Of a DNA stretch of 35,297 nt, positions 14,509-25,439 are shown piece by piece. The position numbers and the translations under genes are program-made. The notes beneath the pieces are model-generated. The model ran no database searches. It saw only the letters and a list, made by a program, of their open reading frames with translations, and had not been told where the DNA came from. Each line of letters starts with the position of its first letter. Within the stretch, counting starts at the first letter, position 1. This DNA comes from Treponema sp. Its GTDB lineage: Bacteria > Spirochaetota > Spirochaetia > Treponematales > Breznakiellaceae. The stretch is from the NCBI GenBank assembly GCA_031258005.1, contig JAIRNP010000160.1, forward strand, positions 1 to 35,297, written 5' to 3'.

Positions 14509-16326
14509 ATGGAATTTAAAGAATTAAACCTACATCCCGACCTTCAACGGGGTATCGCTGATGCAGAATATACGGTGTGTACCTCAGTGCAGGAACAGGT
14601 ACTCACCAACGCCTTTGGAGGTCAAGATCTTTACGTCCAATCTCAAACCGGGACCGGTAAAACCGCCGCATTTTTAATAGTTATCTTCCAGCGCATCCTC
14701 AGCGAATCCCTCTTAAAGGGAAAAAAAGCGATCATCATGGTGCCCACCAGGGAATTGGCGATTCAGGTGGAGGAAGAGGCCCGGATCCTGGGAAAATACC
14801 TGCCCTTTAAGGTGGGCAGTTTCTATGGAGGGGTTGGATACGGCACACAGCAGCAATTACTCAGGGATAATGTGCAGATCCTCGTTGGAACACCGGGCCG
14901 GGTGTTAGATCTAAATCAATCCGGCCAGATGAACCTCATGGATATCGCCTTCTTAGTGCTGGATGAAGCGGATCGTATGTTTGATATGGGTTTTTACCCG
15001 GACTTACGGAAGCTCATCAAGGTGGTTCCTCCGGCGGATCGCCGGCAGACCATGTTGTTCAGTGCTACCCTGAATGCCTGGGTGAAGAACCTCGCCTGGG
15101 AGTACACGAAATCCCCGTATGAAATAGAAATTGCTCCGGAAACCGTAACCCTTGATGAGGTGGAGCAAGTCCTCTACCATGTACCGACCAAGGACAAGAT
15201 GAAACTGCTTCTCGGCATCTTCCAGCGGGAGCAGCCGGAAAGCGCCATCGTCTTCTGTAATACCAAGCGGCAGACGGAAATCGTGGCAAAACGACTGCAG
15301 ATCAACGGGTTTAGCTGTGAATTTATCATTGGCGACCTGCCCCAATCAAAGCGCTTCAAGATTATCGATGATATTAAGGCCGGTCATATCCGGTATCTGG
15401 TGGCTACTGATGTGGCTGCCCGGGGGCTTGATATTGAGGGCCTTGCCCTGGTGGTAAACTACGATCTTCCGGTGGAAGCGGAAAACTACGTGCACCGTAT
15501 TGGACGGACCGCCCGGGCAGGAAAGACCGGCAGGGCCATTGCCCTGGTAAGTGAACAGGATGTGTATGAACTCGGGGATATCGAGAAATACATCGGGAAA
15601 AAGATCCCCGCGAACATAGCCGAGGAAGGGCTTTATGCCCAGGATACCAGTGAAGGTATGAGGCTTCAGCGTGATGTGATGGAAAAATATGATCGGTCCC
15701 CGGAAGACCGCAGAAGAGACAGAAACCCGGGGCATCAGGAAGAAGAAGGGAGACGCCGAGCCGAGGAACGGGGTAATCGTCGGGGCAAGGAGGGAAGCCA
15801 TGAACGGAGATCCCCGGGGAGAAGAACGGATCCGCAGCGTTCTGTATATAAAACCGCAGGACCGGTGCTGAGGAAAACCCAGGATCCTGACTATCAGGAT
15901 CTGTCCCATCTTTCCTTTGAAGAACGGATGGCCTATTACAAACAAAAATACGAAATGCCCCCTCCGGCGCCCAAAGCCCCGCTCCGGGAAGCAAGCCTGC
16001 AGCAAGGGAATTCGGATAATCCTAAGCGTCGGCGATCCCGGTCCAGGTCCGACAAGCAGGGTAAGGTTTCCCCGGGAAAAAGAAGTGAAGGTCTCCGTGC
16101 TCATACGTCCTATGGACAGAAAAGGTCTGGACAATCCCCTGCGGGGCAGCGTCCTTCGCGGAATCATGTTTCTCCCGATGCGGTTTCCTCGTCCCAGGCC
16201 ATGGCATCAAAGCCGGGGTTCCCAGAAACGCCCGAGCCTGCATCCGTAGGTTCTGGGAAAGAAGGTATTATTGCCCGTATGTTCAGCCTGTTTAGTAAAA
16301 AGTCAAAAAGGAGTCCTGATCTGTGA
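14509..16326 (+). CDS. DEAD-box RNA helicase with basic low-complexity C-terminal tail
   Basis: QTGTGKTAAF, PTRELAIQ, VGTPGRVLDL, VLDEADRMFDMGF, FSATL, VATDVAARGLDI, HRIGRTARAG; R/K/S-rich tail from about residue 390. Confidence 0.95.
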   Translation: MEFKELNLHPDLQRGIADAEYTVCTSVQEQVLTNAFGGQDLYVQSQTGTGKTAAFLIVIFQRILSESLLKGKKAIIMVPTRELAIQVEEEARILGKYLPFKVGSFYGGVGYGTQQQLLRDNVQILVGTPGRVLDLNQSGQMNLMDIAFLVLDEADRMFDMGFYPDLRKLIKVVPPADRRQTMLFSATLNAWVKNLAWEYTKSPYEIEIAPETVTLDEVEQVLYHVPTKDKMKLLLGIFQREQPESAIVFCNTKRQTEIVAKRLQINGFSCEFIIGDLPQSKRFKIIDDIKAGHIRYLVATDVAARGLDIEGLALVVNYDLPVEAENYVHRIGRTARAGKTGRAIALVSEQDVYELGDIEKYIGKKIPANIAEEGLYAQDTSEGMRLQRDVMEKYDRSPEDRRRDRNPGHQEEEGRRRAEERGNRRGKEGSHERRSPGRRTDPQRSVYKTAGPVLRKTQDPDYQDLSHLSFEERMAYYKQKYEMPPPAPKAPLREASLQQGNSDNPKRRRSRSRSDKQGKVSPGKRSEGLRAHTSYGQKRSGQSPAGQRPSRNHVSPDAVSSSQAMASKPGFPETPEPASVGSGKEGIIARMFSLFSKKSKRSPDL

Positions 16327-17963
16327 TAACCGTTACTGATGTCAGCCTCAGCTATGGAGAGCGGGCCCTCTTTAAGGAGGTTAATCTCAAATTTACCCCG
16401 GGCAACTGTTATGGAATCATCGGCGCCAATGGGGCAGGAAAATCCACCTTCTTAAAAATACTCTCTGGGGAAATCGAACACGACCGGGGGACGATTACGG
16501 TCAGTTCCGGGGAGCGTATCGCGGTTCTCAAACAAGACCACTTTGCCTTTGAGGACTTTTCGGTCCTTGAAACGGTGATCATGGGGTATCCCAAACTCTA
16601 TGCCATCCAAAAGGAACGAGAAGGCATCTATAGTAAAGAAGATTTTTCCGAAGCAGATGGTATGCGAGCCAGCGAACTGGAAGGGGATTTTGCTGAACTG
16701 GGGGGTTGGGAGGCAGAGGCCCAGGCAGGGCAGCTCCTCTCCGGGCTGGGTATTGACGAAGCAGACCAGCGCAAGATGATGGCGGAATTGGACGAATCCA
16801 AGAAGGTCCGGATCTTGTTGGCCCAAGCGCTGTTCGGCAATCCTGATATTCTCCTCTTAGATGAACCCACCAACGGACTTGACCTCGAATCCATTGCGTG
16901 GCTTGAGGATTTCCTCATGGATTTTCCCAACACGGTTATCGTGGTTTCCCATGACCGGCATTTTCTTAACGCGGTTTGTACCCAGATCTGTGACATTGAT
17001 TTTGGGAAAATCACCCTCTATTCAGGAAACTACGACTTTTGGTACCAGATGAGCCAGATGCTCCAACGGCAGGCCCGGGATCAGCTTAAGAAACGGGAAG
17101 AAAAGGCCCGGGAACTCAAGGAATTCATCCAACGTTTCGCCTCTAATGCGGCAAAAAGCCGTCAGGCCACGAGCCGCAAAAAGGTTTTGGAGAAGTTGGA
17201 CCTGGAAAACCTCACCGTAACCAGCAGAAAATTTCCCTATGTAGGGTTCAAACCGGATCGGGAGATTGGGAACAAGGTGCTCCAGGTAGAGAACCTGACC
17301 TGTACCAGTGAAGGGACCCCGGTGCTTACCAACCTGTCCCTCACGATACACAAGGGAGATAAGATAGCCTTTGTAGGGACCGAACATCAGGCCAAGACAG
17401 CGTTTTTTGACTGCATCGCCGGAGTACAAAAGCCGAGCCTGGGAGCTTATTATTGGGGGCAGACCACCAGTTTTTCGTATTTTCCCAAGGAAAACAGCGA
17501 TTGGTTTACTGAAGAACTTTCCATTACCGATTGGCTCAAGCAGTATTCTCCGGATCAGGATGATACCTATGTACGGAGCTTTCTGGGACGGATGCTCTTT
17601 TCCGGAGACGAGGCCCTGAAGCCGGTGAAGGTCCTTTCTGGAGGGGAAAAGGTCCGGTGTATGCTTGCCCGGATGATGCTTTCCGGGGCCAATGTCCTCA
17701 TCTTGGATGAGCCTACCAATCACCTGGACCTGGAAGCCATCACTGCCCTCAACGAAGGCCTTGCGGCGTTTAGCGGGGTGGTGTTGTTTAACTCTCATGA
17801 CCATGAATTTGTCAATTCGCTGGCAAACCGCATAGTGGAAATCCTCCCCGCAGGTCATGCACTCATCGACCGGATGATGCTCTTTGACGATTATCTGGCA
17901 GATGCATCGGTCAAAGCATTGCGGGCTGCAGCTTCGGATCCTGCAGGCCGTTTGATGATATAA
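16323..17963 (+). CDS. ABC-F family ATPase (YbiT/EttA-like)
   Basis: GTG start; two ABC cassettes (GANGAGKSTFLK, LLLDEPTNGLDLES; LSGGEKVRCMLARMML, LILDEPTNHLDLEA), no TM segments. Confidence 0.92.
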   Translation: MITVTDVSLSYGERALFKEVNLKFTPGNCYGIIGANGAGKSTFLKILSGEIEHDRGTITVSSGERIAVLKQDHFAFEDFSVLETVIMGYPKLYAIQKEREGIYSKEDFSEADGMRASELEGDFAELGGWEAEAQAGQLLSGLGIDEADQRKMMAELDESKKVRILLAQALFGNPDILLLDEPTNGLDLESIAWLEDFLMDFPNTVIVVSHDRHFLNAVCTQICDIDFGKITLYSGNYDFWYQMSQMLQRQARDQLKKREEKARELKEFIQRFASNAAKSRQATSRKKVLEKLDLENLTVTSRKFPYVGFKPDREIGNKVLQVENLTCTSEGTPVLTNLSLTIHKGDKIAFVGTEHQAKTAFFDCIAGVQKPSLGAYYWGQTTSFSYFPKENSDWFTEELSITDWLKQYSPDQDDTYVRSFLGRMLFSGDEALKPVKVLSGGEKVRCMLARMMLSGANVLILDEPTNHLDLEAITALNEGLAAFSGVVLFNSHDHEFVNSLANRIVEILPAGHALIDRMMLFDDYLADASVKALRAAASDPAGRLMI

Positions 17964-17986: not shown

Positions 17987-19966
17987 ATGACCCAAGCAGG
18001 CATGATCAAAATACCCCTGCCTAAGGCGCTCAGAATGATTGGTATGTATGCCGCATCAAAGCTCGGCGCCCAGTTACGGGCAGTTGCCTTTGTCGTGATC
18101 TATCTCTTTCTTGCCCAGACGTTTATTTTAAAAGTACCGGTAGAACATGTCTTTTCAGTGGTCCTCGGCGTGGGGGCTACTGTGGTAGGACTGGCGTTTT
18201 TTCTGGAAGGGCTGTTTTTGGGAATTATGCCCCTGGGTGAACAGTGTGGACTGCGGCTGCCTCCCAAGGTAGGTCCGCTCGGGGTGGGGGTATTTGCCGT
18301 TATTATCGGGGTTACCGCAACCCTGGCAGAACCGGCGATCAGTTTCCTTAAACTGCAAGGGAGTGTGGTGAAATGCTGGGATGCTCCCCTCCTCTACCTG
18401 GTGCTTAACCGAGGTTCCACCTGGCTGGTCCTTGCCATTGCCGTAGGGGTGGGCCTGGCAGTGCTCCTTGGGGTGTTCCGGTTTATTTATGGCTGGCCCT
18501 TTAAACCCGCGGTGTTCATTATGATGCCTATCCTGCTGGTCATCGGGTTTATCTGCGAGCGAGATCCCATCCTCCGTCCGCTCGCTAACCTGGCCTGGGA
18601 TACCGGGGGCGCTACTACCGGCCCGGTAACGGTTCCCCTGGTTATTGCCCTGGGTATCGGGGTTTCCAAGATCGCCGGAGGTAACAAGGGCGGTGCATCA
18701 GGGCTCGGGGTCATTACCCTGGCTTCCGGCTTGCCCGTCCTCGCGGTCTTTGCCCTGGGTTTCTTTCTTTTACCGAAAGTTCCAGGGCCCTCCACTCCCG
18801 CGCAATTCTTTGCTACAGATCCTTTGGTTCGAAGCAAGGCGGAATATGTGGCGGGAAGCGAGGAAGCCTTGGTAAGCCTGGCCCGTCATGCAGTGGCCCA
18901 GGGTTTTTTGGAGGAAAACCAATTCCGTGCTTCCTTCCCCGGATCTGCCCTTGAAGAGAAACCCCTCGTCCCTGTCCCCCAAGCCTCTGCAAAGAACCCG
19001 AAAGCCCTGGTTTCGGGAAAGATCGGGCAATCCCTCAAAGACGCCCTCACGGCGGTGCTGCCCCTCACCCTGGTACTGGTGATTACGATCCTTATCGTGG
19101 TACGGGAACGGATCCGGGAGACGGATGTAAGCCTCCTGGGTATTGCCTTTACGGTTATCGGCATGTTTCTTTTTGGCTTTGGTATGGAGCGGGGGATTTC
19201 CGCCTTAGGTTCCCAAGCAGGTGCAGCCCTTCCCCATGCCTATGAGCAGACCGTCCGGAGCGACGCGGCGGTGGTGGTACGAGGGGTGGATAGGTCATCC
19301 CGGTTTGTGGTGCCAGGGCCTACCGGGGCCAAGCCCTATATCTGGATTAACGATGGTACTGGGCCTAAAGCAGTACCCTTTGACGCTACGCAAATGCAGG
19401 AAGCCACAGGAATTTACCGACATATTCCGGTAGAGGATGCGGTGTTCTCTAAATGGGGACGTATTGCGGGATTGGCAGCAGTGCTGATCTTTGTATTTGT
19501 CCTGGGCTTTGGGGCAACCCTAGCAGAACCATCTTTGGCAGCCTTGGGTATTACCGTGGAAGAACTGACCACCGGAACCTACAAGAAGAATACCTTGGTA
19601 TCCATGGTGGCGATTGGCGTTGGCTTAGGCATGGCCGCAGGGTTTGGACGAATTCTTTTTAACCTACCCCTCGCATGGTTATTGGGTATTCCCTATGCCC
19701 TTGCGATAGTGCTCACCTTGGTGTCTTCCGAAGAATTCGCCGCCATTGCCTGGGATTCTGCGGGGGTTACCACCGGCCCCATAACCGTGCCCTTGGTGAT
19801 TGCTGCGGGTCTGGGTATTGGTCAGAGTGCCGGAGCTGGAGCGGTGGGGGGTGCTTTCGGTGTCGTTGCCAGCGCCAGTGTTTTTCCGATTCTTGCGATG
19901 CTGCTTTCAGGGATGATCAACAACGCCCGCACCAAGAAGGTACTCCCCTTTAAATCAATCTTGTAG
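17987..19966 (+). CDS. Membrane protein with two DUF1538-like halves
   Basis: Internal repeats: GVTATLAEPAIS / GFGATLAEPSLA and AWDTGGATTGPVTVPLVIALGIGVS / AWDSAGVTTGPITVPLVIAAGLGIG; many TM segments. Confidence 0.85.
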   Translation: MTQAGMIKIPLPKALRMIGMYAASKLGAQLRAVAFVVIYLFLAQTFILKVPVEHVFSVVLGVGATVVGLAFFLEGLFLGIMPLGEQCGLRLPPKVGPLGVGVFAVIIGVTATLAEPAISFLKLQGSVVKCWDAPLLYLVLNRGSTWLVLAIAVGVGLAVLLGVFRFIYGWPFKPAVFIMMPILLVIGFICERDPILRPLANLAWDTGGATTGPVTVPLVIALGIGVSKIAGGNKGGASGLGVITLASGLPVLAVFALGFFLLPKVPGPSTPAQFFATDPLVRSKAEYVAGSEEALVSLARHAVAQGFLEENQFRASFPGSALEEKPLVPVPQASAKNPKALVSGKIGQSLKDALTAVLPLTLVLVITILIVVRERIRETDVSLLGIAFTVIGMFLFGFGMERGISALGSQAGAALPHAYEQTVRSDAAVVVRGVDRSSRFVVPGPTGAKPYIWINDGTGPKAVPFDATQMQEATGIYRHIPVEDAVFSKWGRIAGLAAVLIFVFVLGFGATLAEPSLAALGITVEELTTGTYKKNTLVSMVAIGVGLGMAAGFGRILFNLPLAWLLGIPYALAIVLTLVSSEEFAAIAWDSAGVTTGPITVPLVIAAGLGIGQSAGAGAVGGAFGVVASASVFPILAMLLSGMINNARTKKVLPFKSIL

Positions 19967-19975
19967 GAGTATGCC

Positions 19976-21136
19976 ATGTCTGAACAAACCGCTTTTTCAA
20001 AAATAAACTGTGTCGTTAATAGTAGGGTAACCCCTTTAATTGACAAGGCCCTCAAGGACCTCGCCATTCCCGAAGTATACATTCAGCAGGCAAAACAGAT
20101 AAGTCTCCTGGATCGCTCCACCTGGTTGGGCCTGCGTTCATCCACCACATTGGAAGAAGCCCGGGCGGTGTTTTATCGATTTTATGTGCCGACCGCCTAT
20201 GAAACCGGAATCATGCGGCGGATCGCAGAAGCCGCGGATCTGTATTTGCCTGGCCGCGGTTCCATTTATGCCAAAACGGTCAGCCTCCGTCGAAAGACCC
20301 CCTTGGCCTTTGATATGGAAAAGTTGGAAACCCTGGCCGGAAGCGGAGCCCCGGGTAAAGATAACTATGCGGTGATCTACTGTATTGTCCAGCGGGGCGC
20401 CGCTTCCTCCTTAGCCGCGACGGTGCTGGAGATGGGCCTCTGTGTACCCCTGATTTCCTTTGGGCAGGGCATGGGACTGCGGGATCGATTGGGCTTGTTA
20501 CGGATCACCATTCCCGTGGAAAAGGAAGTCATCTATTTCATTGTCCCTAAGATCGATGCGGAACTGCTGGAAAGCGTGATCATCCATAAGGCCCGGCTGG
20601 ATCTGCCGGGGCAGGGCTTTTTGTATAAAACCTACATCCGGGCCGTGGCGGTCAACCTCCATGTACGCCGGGGAAAACGGCATTATGCGGCCACGATGGA
20701 ACAGGTTATCGCTACCCTGGACGATCTTCGGGGGTCCAGTGATTGGCGGCGGCTGGGGGCAAGCCCTACGGAAAAAACAGAACCGGAAACAAAAGAGGAA
20801 CTCATCTGCCTTTCTCTCATTGCTGAAGAAGGTACCCTGGATGTATTCGGTAAAGCGGCTTTGGATTACGGAGCCGGGGGCGCCACGTTTATCATCTTGG
20901 AATTGCGTTCCCATCAGCAAGATGGGGAACATAGCCCCAGCTCTCATGCGCGAGAGATCTGTGATGTGGTAGTATCGAGCGATATTAAGGAGCATATCGT
21001 AGCAGGGATGCAGGGGGCGGGATTCTTTGACGGGGAAAATCCGGGGATGCTTGAAATATCCTCAGCCCATTCTGCAGTAACCTACCTTCGACTGCAGGAT
21101 AAAAGCAAGTCAGCCGCTGCTCATGGAGGTCCGTGA
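19976..21136 (+). CDS. PII-like regulatory protein, apparently three tandem PII-like domains
   Basis: Three betaalphabeta-betaalphabeta-like modules: INCVVNSRVTPLIDKALKDL...YRFYVPTAYETGIMRRIAEAADLYLPGRGSIYAKTV; YAVIYCIVQRGAASSLAATVLEMG...VIYFIVPKIDAELLESVIIHKARLDLPGQGFLYKTYI; ELICLSLIAEEGTLDVFGKAALDYGAGGATFIIL...CDVVVSSDIKEHIVAGMQGAGFFDGENPGMLEISS. Confidence 0.65.
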   Translation: MSEQTAFSKINCVVNSRVTPLIDKALKDLAIPEVYIQQAKQISLLDRSTWLGLRSSTTLEEARAVFYRFYVPTAYETGIMRRIAEAADLYLPGRGSIYAKTVSLRRKTPLAFDMEKLETLAGSGAPGKDNYAVIYCIVQRGAASSLAATVLEMGLCVPLISFGQGMGLRDRLGLLRITIPVEKEVIYFIVPKIDAELLESVIIHKARLDLPGQGFLYKTYIRAVAVNLHVRRGKRHYAATMEQVIATLDDLRGSSDWRRLGASPTEKTEPETKEELICLSLIAEEGTLDVFGKAALDYGAGGATFIILELRSHQQDGEHSPSSHAREICDVVVSSDIKEHIVAGMQGAGFFDGENPGMLEISSAHSAVTYLRLQDKSKSAAAHGGP

Positions 21137-22208: not shown

Positions 22209-23588
22209 ATGGATAAAAATTATCAAACCGCCCTTTCTGAAGCCATACAAATTCGACGGGAATATATAGAAAAATCGGTATTGGATCCTTTAAAAGAAGA
22301 CCTCCGTGCATTCTATAACGCGTATGAAGCATTGTATCGTATGTTACTCACCAAGGGGATGGTCAAGGAAGATCCTTATAGACAGGATGTCCAAATCGGG
22401 GAAATTCAAATTCCCGAAACTGAGGCATTCGCAGAAGCTGAAAAGGATAAACACCTTACGATCCGGCTGTCCCATTATGATATACAACTTGATGTATTGG
22501 TAAATTTTTACCAGTTTAATACCGCCTATTTTACCCTTGACCGGATTAAGCGGGTCCTGGGTCTCATAAAATATATTGACTGGATTAATCTCACGCCTGA
22601 TTCTTCATCCCCCATTACCCGGGCGGTGGCTGAAATAACCAATCAATTGCGGAGAGGAACCGATGCTTTGGGAGTGGGGGGTATCATAGGGCTCATCCAG
22701 CGTCTAGCCAGATTAAGCCGTTCGGTTCTGGCTACTTTAAAGATCCTCTTTGATTTTAACCGGGAGGCGTATAAACTTGAAGTACGCACCGCGGTAAGCA
22801 GCCGTATACCCCAAGGGAAAAGCCCCACGGTAGGGGATATCAAGAAGCACATGGCTGCTTCTATGCCGGGTACGCCGGTGTATACTGAATTGCTTGAAGA
22901 ATTGATAAAAGAAGACTATTCATCTATGGGTCCAGAGTTGCAGGAACGGATCCTCCAATCCTTGAAGCTGGCTGAGCATAAGCAAGAGACCGATACCCAG
23001 GAGGTTTCATTCAAGCATTTTCTCGTTGAAGGAGTTCAGATCCTCAGCGGCCTTGCGCCGATTCTGCTGGAAATAGGGATAAAATTAGATGCGAATGAAG
23101 CGGTTCTGGCAAATCGGAAGCTCAGTCTTTGGGATAAAATCAAGCGGCTATTGGCGCAGATGGTGAACAAGGAACCGGAACCCATCCTCTATGAAGTGGT
23201 ATATCAATATTCGGGCTCTACTCCGGTCAGAGAACTCGTTAATTTTGACCAGTTACGCGGTAAAATTGCTAAAAAGGCAAAACAATTTTCCTCTGCCCAG
23301 GCTATGACCCTGGCACAGATTAACGCCCTGGGAGATGAGCAGCTTATGCAATTCCTCGAATATGGTATCAAGGATATCCAGTCCCTGTATAAAACCTTGA
23401 ACGCCGTGGATGATTATGTTAAGCAGAAGGTTGATCCGAAGGATCGGGATCAGATAAAGGGTATAAAACCGGAACTCTCTACCTTGAAGAACAGCTATAT
23501 CAAGGCAAACCAGCGATGTTCTGACTACACCCTCCTTAAGGAAGAAGCAGAACAACTTAAAAAGCTGGATATTGCCCAAAAGGGTTAG
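22209..23588 (+). CDS. Conserved-looking hypothetical protein, helix-rich, no recognised domain
   Basis: 459 aa continuous ORF with normal codon use and ATG start; spirochaete-type hypothetical. Confidence 0.7.
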   Translation: MDKNYQTALSEAIQIRREYIEKSVLDPLKEDLRAFYNAYEALYRMLLTKGMVKEDPYRQDVQIGEIQIPETEAFAEAEKDKHLTIRLSHYDIQLDVLVNFYQFNTAYFTLDRIKRVLGLIKYIDWINLTPDSSSPITRAVAEITNQLRRGTDALGVGGIIGLIQRLARLSRSVLATLKILFDFNREAYKLEVRTAVSSRIPQGKSPTVGDIKKHMAASMPGTPVYTELLEELIKEDYSSMGPELQERILQSLKLAEHKQETDTQEVSFKHFLVEGVQILSGLAPILLEIGIKLDANEAVLANRKLSLWDKIKRLLAQMVNKEPEPILYEVVYQYSGSTPVRELVNFDQLRGKIAKKAKQFSSAQAMTLAQINALGDEQLMQFLEYGIKDIQSLYKTLNAVDDYVKQKVDPKDRDQIKGIKPELSTLKNSYIKANQRCSDYTLLKEEAEQLKKLDIAQKG

Positions 23589-23717: not shown

Positions 23718-25439
23718 ATGAAAAAGTTCAAGGTCAGGGATCTCGGTTTCAGGATTAGGCTCGTATATATGGTTATCATCCTGGGCGTGGTATCGTGCAA
23801 AAGCGCTTCTATACGGGAAGAAGCGGCGCCGCTGTCTGGGGGATCCCAGGATCGCCTTGTGGATCAGGGGGCAGTCCCTCAAGGGCCGGATTTCGCGGAA
23901 ACTCGGCCTCGGTCGCTGGTTCGAGACCAGCTTACGGTAACCTTTTCCCAGGGGGAATTGGAATTGGATTTCCGGAAGTCCTATCTGGCCTATGAAGCCC
24001 AGCTTTTCACCGGACTATATGAGGGTCTTTTTTCTTATCACCCGGTTACTATGGAACCGGTTCCTGGGCTTGCTGCCCAGTGGGAGGTTTCGGAGGATAA
24101 AACGCAGTGGACCTTTACGATCCGGGAGAATGCCAAATACTGGAACGGGGATAGGGTGAGGGCGGAAGATTTTCGGGCGGCCTGGATCTCCCTTTTGGAT
24201 CCTGCGGCGAATTCTCCCTATTCATCGTTGTTTGACATTATCCAGGGAGCCAGGGAATACCGGACAGGGCGGCTCCGGGACCCGCGACGGATCGGCATTA
24301 AGGCCGATGACGAGCGAACCCTGGTAGTGCAGCTCAATACCCCGGCATCGTTCTTTCCTAGTATGCTCTGCCATCATTCTTTTAGCCCTATTCATCCGTC
24401 TATGCTGAACCAAGCGGATTGGTCCCAGGTCCTCCCGATTTCTAATGGACCTTTTTATATTGAGGAACATAACCAGGATCGTATGGTGCTGGTTAAAAAC
24501 GAGGTATATTGGGGCGCTAAAAATGTATCCTTGAATAAGATCATTTTAAGGTTTACCGAAGATGGGGATGAAGCTACGGCTATGTGGAATTCCGGGGAAG
24601 CCCGGTGGATTTCCGGGGAGGTGAACCTGGAAACCCTTACGGACCGCAGCGGGATCATGGTCAATCCTATGTTTGCCACCCATTATTATTTTATTAGATC
24701 CGCAGAAAAGCCCTGGAACGATCACCGGATCCGGCGGGCCCTTTCCCTGGCGCTGCCCTGGGAGCAAATCCGGGAGGGACACATGCTTCCTGCGAAAACC
24801 CTCATCTACCCTATTCCCGGATATCCGCAAGTAAAAGGCTTGGATAGTACAGATATGGAAGAGGCTCAGCGGCTTTTGGCGGAAGCGGGGTTTCCCAAAG
24901 GGGTGGGCCTTCCGGATCTGGTTATCAAGCTGACCCCTTCTGCGGAGGCTTCCCGTATCGGGACCCTCATGGCTGGAGTCTGGATGGAAAAGCTCGGGGT
25001 TCCGGTAAAAATTACCGTGATTCCCTATAATCAATACTTTCAGTCGCTGAAACAAGACGACTACGAGGTGGGTTTTTCTACCTGGATTGGAGATTTTGCC
25101 GATCCCTATACCTTCCTCCAAATGTGGCGTAGAGATTCCAATCTGAATGATGCCCAGTACAATGATAGGGATTATGAAAACTTGATGGACAAGTCCATGA
25201 CCGAGGATGGGGAAAAACGCTGGGCCACCTTGGCAGAGGCGGAAAAGCTCCTCCTGGACCGGGGTACGGTGCTCCCCATTTCCTATAGTCCTGCTATAAA
25301 CATCGTCGATACGGATGAACTAGACGGGTGGTTTCCCAATGCCCTGGATATTCATCCCTTTAAGTACCTCTCCTTCAAGGCCTATAAGCCCTTACCCGGG
25401 GTAACCCAGGTACCGAGGCAGCGGAAGCTGCGGGGCTAG
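23718..25439 (+). CDS. Oligopeptide ABC transporter substrate-binding lipoprotein (OppA-like, SBP family 5)
   Basis: Lipobox-like GVVSC; LFTGLYEGLFSYHPVTMEPVPGLAAQWEVSEDKTQWTFTIRENAKYWNGDRVRAEDFRAAW; IRRALSLALPWEQI. Confidence 0.93.
   Translation: MKKFKVRDLGFRIRLVYMVIILGVVSCKSASIREEAAPLSGGSQDRLVDQGAVPQGPDFAETRPRSLVRDQLTVTFSQGELELDFRKSYLAYEAQLFTGLYEGLFSYHPVTMEPVPGLAAQWEVSEDKTQWTFTIRENAKYWNGDRVRAEDFRAAWISLLDPAANSPYSSLFDIIQGAREYRTGRLRDPRRIGIKADDERTLVVQLNTPASFFPSMLCHHSFSPIHPSMLNQADWSQVLPISNGPFYIEEHNQDRMVLVKNEVYWGAKNVSLNKIILRFTEDGDEATAMWNSGEARWISGEVNLETLTDRSGIMVNPMFATHYYFIRSAEKPWNDHRIRRALSLALPWEQIREGHMLPAKTLIYPIPGYPQVKGLDSTDMEEAQRLLAEAGFPKGVGLPDLVIKLTPSAEASRIGTLMAGVWMEKLGVPVKITVIPYNQYFQSLKQDDYEVGFSTWIGDFADPYTFLQMWRRDSNLNDAQYNDRDYENLMDKSMTEDGEKRWATLAEAEKLLLDRGTVLPISYSPAINIVDTDELDGWFPNALDIHPFKYLSFKAYKPLPGVTQVPRQRKLRG

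Follow-up and report, generated by a model that had tools for sequence, protein, structure and literature searches.

Is the DUF1538 membrane protein encoded by a Treponema sp. contig (JAIRNP010000160.1) controlled by a PII-like protein encoded directly behind it? The question is raised by two adjacent genes in the window, i.e., the whole stretch of 35,297 nucleotides that was analysed. The preliminary description read the first gene as encoding a 659-aa membrane protein with two related halves and the second, 9 nt further, as encoding a 386-aa protein with three PII-like modules. On recheck, the positions, both lengths and the 9-nt spacing were all exact, and plausible ribosome sites precede both reading frames (AAGGA for the 659-aa and AGGAG for the 386-aa protein). 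The two genes and the features of the first protein are as follows.

17987..19966, plus strand: 659-aa fused DUF1538 protein (A-type), UmpA-like half followed by UmpB-like half (Pfam PF07556, NCBIfam)
18092..18766, plus strand: first DUF1538 domain (genome search, 157.1 bits)
19067..19918, plus strand: second DUF1538 domain (genome search, 167.4 bits)
19235..19474, plus strand: hydrophilic insertion of about 80 residues within the second half, limits approximate (half-versus-half alignment)
19976..21136, plus strand: 386-aa triple PII-like protein (orthologues, deep profiles, d2 HMM)

The 659-aa protein matches Pfam DUF1538 (PF07556) in two stretches (E 3.8e-94, 314.3 bits; gathering score 22.6), and its halves align to each other with 31% identity (E 2e-13), which upholds the reading of two related DUF1538 halves. 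In NCBIfam, the best reading is UmpA for the N-terminal half (163.6 bits) and UmpB for the C-terminal half (149.4 bits), below the equivalog cut-offs of 490 and 500 (NF041627, NF041628). As these scores are far under the cut-offs, the substrate of the 659-aa protein may differ from that of UmpAB. UmpAB from Halomonas zhaodongensis is a DUF1538 heterodimer for which Na+(Li+,K+)/H+ antiport was measured at pH 6.5-9.5 (PMC5484666), and it is the only characterised DUF1538 pair in the literature searched. The preliminary description, which did not know a substrate of DUF1538 to be established, has to be corrected on this point. Its idea of bicarbonate or a carboxylate was set aside and is not the first guess, because UmpAB is a cation/proton antiporter (PMC5484666). 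DUF1538 also appears in the gene list of a machine-learning study on growth pH (PMC13255231). UmpAB and the protein described here agree in having two related DUF1538 domains, A being followed by B. UmpAB is a separate pair, however, while here a single fused polypeptide that scores below the equivalog cut-offs is accompanied by a PII partner gene; the UmpAB paper mentions no PII regulator (PMC5484666). The insertion in the second half appears to sit where the loop II-III extension of UmpB is described (PMC5484666).

The 386-aa protein by itself has no match in Pfam, NCBIfam or PDB sequences, and homology to P-II (PF00543) was found for each of its modules through orthologues and deep profiles. 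The profiles cover residues 6-118, 129-224 and 270-371, and were made from 30 orthologues of the same family and 26 more distant ones. Below, T1, T2 and T3 denote the modules of the triple protein, and d2 the second module of a two-module (double) PII protein. The modules, together with the linker between the second and the third, are located as follows.

19991..20275, plus strand: PII-like module 1, residues about 6-100 (T1 versus d2 profile; Pfam P-II in orthologues L126 and L135)
20360..20647, plus strand: PII-like module 2, residues 129-224 (T2 versus d2 profile; d2 HMM match)
20654..20761, plus strand: conserved linker of about 36 residues, 227-262, AATMEQVIA.LD..GSSDWRR (conservation)
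20792..21088, plus strand: PII-like module 3, residues 273-371 (T3 versus d2 profile; Pfam P-II in orthologue L108)

In the deep profile comparison, each a single pairwise comparison, d2 is matched by T1 with E 6.6e-13, by T2 with E 2.3e-15 and by T3 with E 3.4e-14. The modules reach best scores of 69-83, whereas none of the column-shuffled controls, 40 for each module, exceeded 16.4. When the profile of the 30 orthologues is compared by hhalign to the two-module PII protein, the latter aligns co-linearly twice, once over residues 4-222 (modules 1 and 2) and once over residues 130-373 (modules 2 and 3). Scores above the Pfam gathering threshold of P-II were reached by module 1 of L126 (31.1 bits) and L135 (25.9 bits), as well as by module 3 of L108 (25.9 bits). 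For module 2, a search of L135 against all plasmids matched annotated P-II proteins (E 6e-4). Two stretches of the 386-aa protein itself, 130-224 and 273-357, are moreover matched by the d2 HMM (2,422 ORFs searched; sequence E 8.9e-9), which gives three separate matches each in L121, L122 and L123. Classical spirochaete PII proteins, combined in a quick alignment, gave no significant match to the modules in hhalign. The structure models rest on shallow alignments: AlphaFold2 reached a pLDDT of 33 for the whole protein with 7 sequences that are 83-96% identical to the query, and of 54 for module 2 alone with equally close sequences (83-96% identical). With the latter model, the top four Foldseek matches comprise GlnZ, GlnK2 and a PII-like protein at E 0.33-0.52, and none reaches E<=0.001; the abundance of PII and PII-like entries in the first ranks is a weak hint. 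Pfam also matched an EMC1 beta-propeller in 18 members (best E 0.0042), which is regarded as a chance result. The homology thus bears out the earlier reading, and at the level of sequence the 386-aa protein is supported as three tandem PII-like modules in one chain. Neither Pfam nor NCBIfam labels the triple-PII family, which therefore easily goes unnoticed in present-day annotation.

The modules differ in what they conserve, as counted over 56 triple proteins. A B-loop-like PGRGS is kept in module 1 of most of them. Module 2 keeps both GxGxGxRD[RK]LG at the T-loop base and a PGxGF B-loop. In module 3, the GxG of the B-loop is lost and a GAxGAT between the first helix and the second strand is kept. 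The classical GlnB/GlnK signatures, i.e., a GDGKIF-type B-loop and a YRGAEY T-loop, were not found in the 386-aa protein: the B-loop position reads PGRGS in module 1 and PGxGF in module 2, and YRGAEY is absent. The divergence between modules that had been put forward earlier is therefore real, with a different set of conserved motifs in each. This is how specialised, non-interchangeable modules would be expected to look, although the loss of a motif is no proof of lost binding. The linker is among the best-conserved parts of the triple proteins, and A239, Q243, D249, W257 and R258 are invariant in 24 divergent sequences.

Conservation of the gene order connects both proteins. Within the family to which the window belongs, a triple-PII orthologue is present in 32 of the 203 genomes, and a DUF1538 gene is located immediately upstream in 30/30 of those for which DNA was fetched. 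A wider draw of 395 Spirochaetota genomes, 148 of which have DUF1538, yielded the triple protein in 28 further genomes outside the family. DUF1538 is directly upstream in all 25 of those fetched with upstream sequence, a count that leaves out L137, which starts at a contig edge, and two partial matches. The total thus amounts to 55/55 testable genomes, and the pairing is not due to chance. The gap is mostly -23 to 14 nt, larger apparent overlaps being caused by over-extended start codons, and no other neighbour of the pair is recurrent across genera. A neighbourhood survey had been set beforehand as the check on the proposed DUF1538/PII linkage, and the linkage is recurrent. As in SbtA-SbtB, a transporter gene directly before a PII-like gene is conserved across genera. 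The DUF1538 and triple-PII genes are a real, conserved and largely unannotated unit, and their constant pairing in the genomes checked suggests that the transporter comes with a metabolic switch of its own.

Relatives with fewer modules extend this arrangement. The genome with the pair, probably that of a termite-gut Treponema as judged from its nearest named relatives and from isolate codes, contains another fused DUF1538 gene (516 aa; G000:C68, locus L011:3906-5453), the end of which overlaps with a gene for a two-module PII protein of about 240 aa, P0004 (L011:5446-6168). The second module of P0004 matches Pfam P-II (E 9e-8), and profile comparison shows its two modules to be mutually homologous. 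Among the B-type DUF1538 loci fetched from the 395-genome search, a double PII gene lies directly downstream in 26 of 29; L070, L073 and L090 have no adjacent PII gene, and sister genomes of L070 and L073 keep the double. In a tree of 86 fused DUF1538 proteins, which is a quick search with long branches, one branch (SH-aLRT 100) separates 48 triple-partnered from 33 double-partnered proteins, and the partner type changes state once. This split points to two old transporter-regulator units in the Spirochaetota, of which the present genome has one each. Outside this phylum, plasmids of Peptoclostridium, Paraclostridium and Vescimonas encode a fused DUF1538 protein followed by a 'P-II family nitrogen regulator' of about 222 aa, while in those of Methylocystis and Chelativorans DUF1538 is split over separate genes and the 'P-II family nitrogen regulator' behind them is single. 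The order DUF1538 then P-II is therefore widespread, with a single P-II in Alphaproteobacteria and a double one in Clostridia. Like the triple protein, the two-module proteins (P0004 and those of Clostridia) have tandem PII-like modules encoded directly after a fused DUF1538 gene, but they have two modules, do not contain the WRR linker and accompany a different DUF1538 clade. The single P-II of Methylocystis and Chelativorans likewise follows DUF1538 and is homologous to module 2, but consists of one module of 112-122 aa beside a transporter split over two genes, compared to three modules and a fused transporter here.

In two genomes, G006 and G175 (L055:866-6297 and L056:2458-7988), both units form a four-gene cluster, with an A-type DUF1538 gene and the triple followed by a B-type DUF1538 gene and the double. 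At L129:4739-9905, there are two divergent A-type DUF1538 genes, and the PII partner of the second is broken or cut near the contig end. In addition to the two PII-like genes mentioned, the present genome has a classical GlnB-like gene elsewhere (C64:4750-5067), and a weak third P-II match lies at C160:15303-15533 (22 bits, under the cut-off).

Several transporters with an adjacent PII gene have been described. SbtB is a PII-like trimer with an AMP site between its subunits; its T-loops enter SbtA, and GlnK likewise acts on AmtB by T-loop insertion (PMC8352866). The locus shares with SbtA-SbtB and AmtB-GlnK the order of a membrane transporter gene and a PII or PII-like gene, and a similar gating logic is proposed by analogy. 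It differs in that SbtB and GlnK are homotrimers of single-module chains, while each chain has three modules here, and SbtA and AmtB are not known as relatives of DUF1538. The pair would thus be a known transporter-plus-PII arrangement, but with an unusual three-in-one regulator. Given the antiport by UmpAB and the gating by PII proteins of transporters encoded next to them, the simplest account is that of a cation/proton antiporter which has a PII-like switch dedicated to it. Both genes probably form a self-contained unit, in which an antiporter of the UmpAB type is gated by the triple PII-like regulator in response to a small ligand. The 659-aa protein would be the fused antiporter, and the 386-aa protein a soluble regulator with its three modules joined in one chain. 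The latter probably docks onto the antiporter from the cytoplasmic side and, depending on the ligand, would slow or permit transport. The ligand would most likely be an adenine nucleotide (ATP, ADP, AMP or c-di-AMP), the type of ligand that members of the PII family have in common, and may bind in modules 1 and 2 close to their PGxG loops. The several candidates include c-di-AMP, as a diadenylate cyclase gene is present in the genome.

How the modules assemble can be envisaged in different ways. The preliminary description proposed that the three modules of one chain fold into an intramolecular pseudo-trimer, the three interfaces of which are not equivalent. The number of modules equals that of subunits in a PII trimer, and in all lineages each module conserves different motifs, as specialised positions would; this assembly is a serious candidate, if somewhat short of an even chance. 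A single chain of the homologous double proteins, however, cannot make up a trimer, which means that other assemblies are tolerated in the family. For the same reason it is equally simple that three chains stack as PII-like trimers, with one ring per module, or take another multi-chain arrangement. Double proteins would then form two rings, and the conserved linker could space the rings of modules 2 and 3; the ring of module 3, on the other hand, would have no standard site, as its B-loop motif is missing. Such stacking is a tentative option, well below even. It is doubtful whether the most elaborate model holds as a whole, in which a single-chain asymmetric pseudo-trimer, with ligand at some interfaces only, gates the fused UmpAB-type antiporter, transporter and regulator having been fused in parallel. 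The combinations concerned are split DUF1538 with a single PII, fused DUF1538 with a double and fused DUF1538 with a triple.

What is transported and what is regulated can be questioned as well. The DUF1538 proteins of this clade may move something besides Na+/K+ and H+, the PII-like protein sensing the pathway of that substrate. The low UmpA/UmpB scores (149-164 bits, with cut-offs of 490-500) and the large soluble insertions present in A-type DUF1538 proteins are in line with this. UmpAB, the only pair of the family to be characterised, is a cation/proton antiporter, however (PMC5484666), and a different substrate is considered rather unlikely. PII proteins have many soluble targets. The triple protein could accordingly serve nitrogen or transcription control, with the linkage reflecting co-regulation only. 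Such a role is improbable in view of the linkage in 55/55 testable genomes, the split of the transporter tree by partner type and the absence of any other conserved neighbour. The preferred reading remains that of a cation/proton antiporter with its own PII-like regulator.

No published regulator of DUF1538/UmpAB antiporters was found in the literature searched, and neither was a link between DUF1538 and PII, subscription journals being mostly outside that search. The conserved linkage proposes such a regulator, and an E. coli strain deficient in antiporters, which already exists, would allow the proposal to be tested with the two genes. In a homotrimer, the three PII sites cannot be mutated separately. 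With three diverged PII modules naturally joined in one chain, the influence of one site on another, a long-studied question, would become addressable by separate mutations in each module.

The surroundings of the pair vary. In the window, an ABC-F ATPase gene (16323-17963) ends 23 nt before the DUF1538 gene and, together with the DEAD-box helicase gene at 14509-16326, may share a transcript. The helicase gene is also upstream of the pair in four loci of the same genus; outside this genus, neither it nor the ABC-F ATPase gene is a recurrent neighbour. In L124, L126, L127 and L128, which belong to one family, the gene after the triple encodes a protein of 350-548 aa; by eye, that of L126 starts like a membrane protein and is possibly an ion channel. 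In the window itself, positions 22209-23588 encode a TP0584 family protein (NF053715, 439.8 bits), and an OppA-like binding protein is encoded next at 23718-25439.
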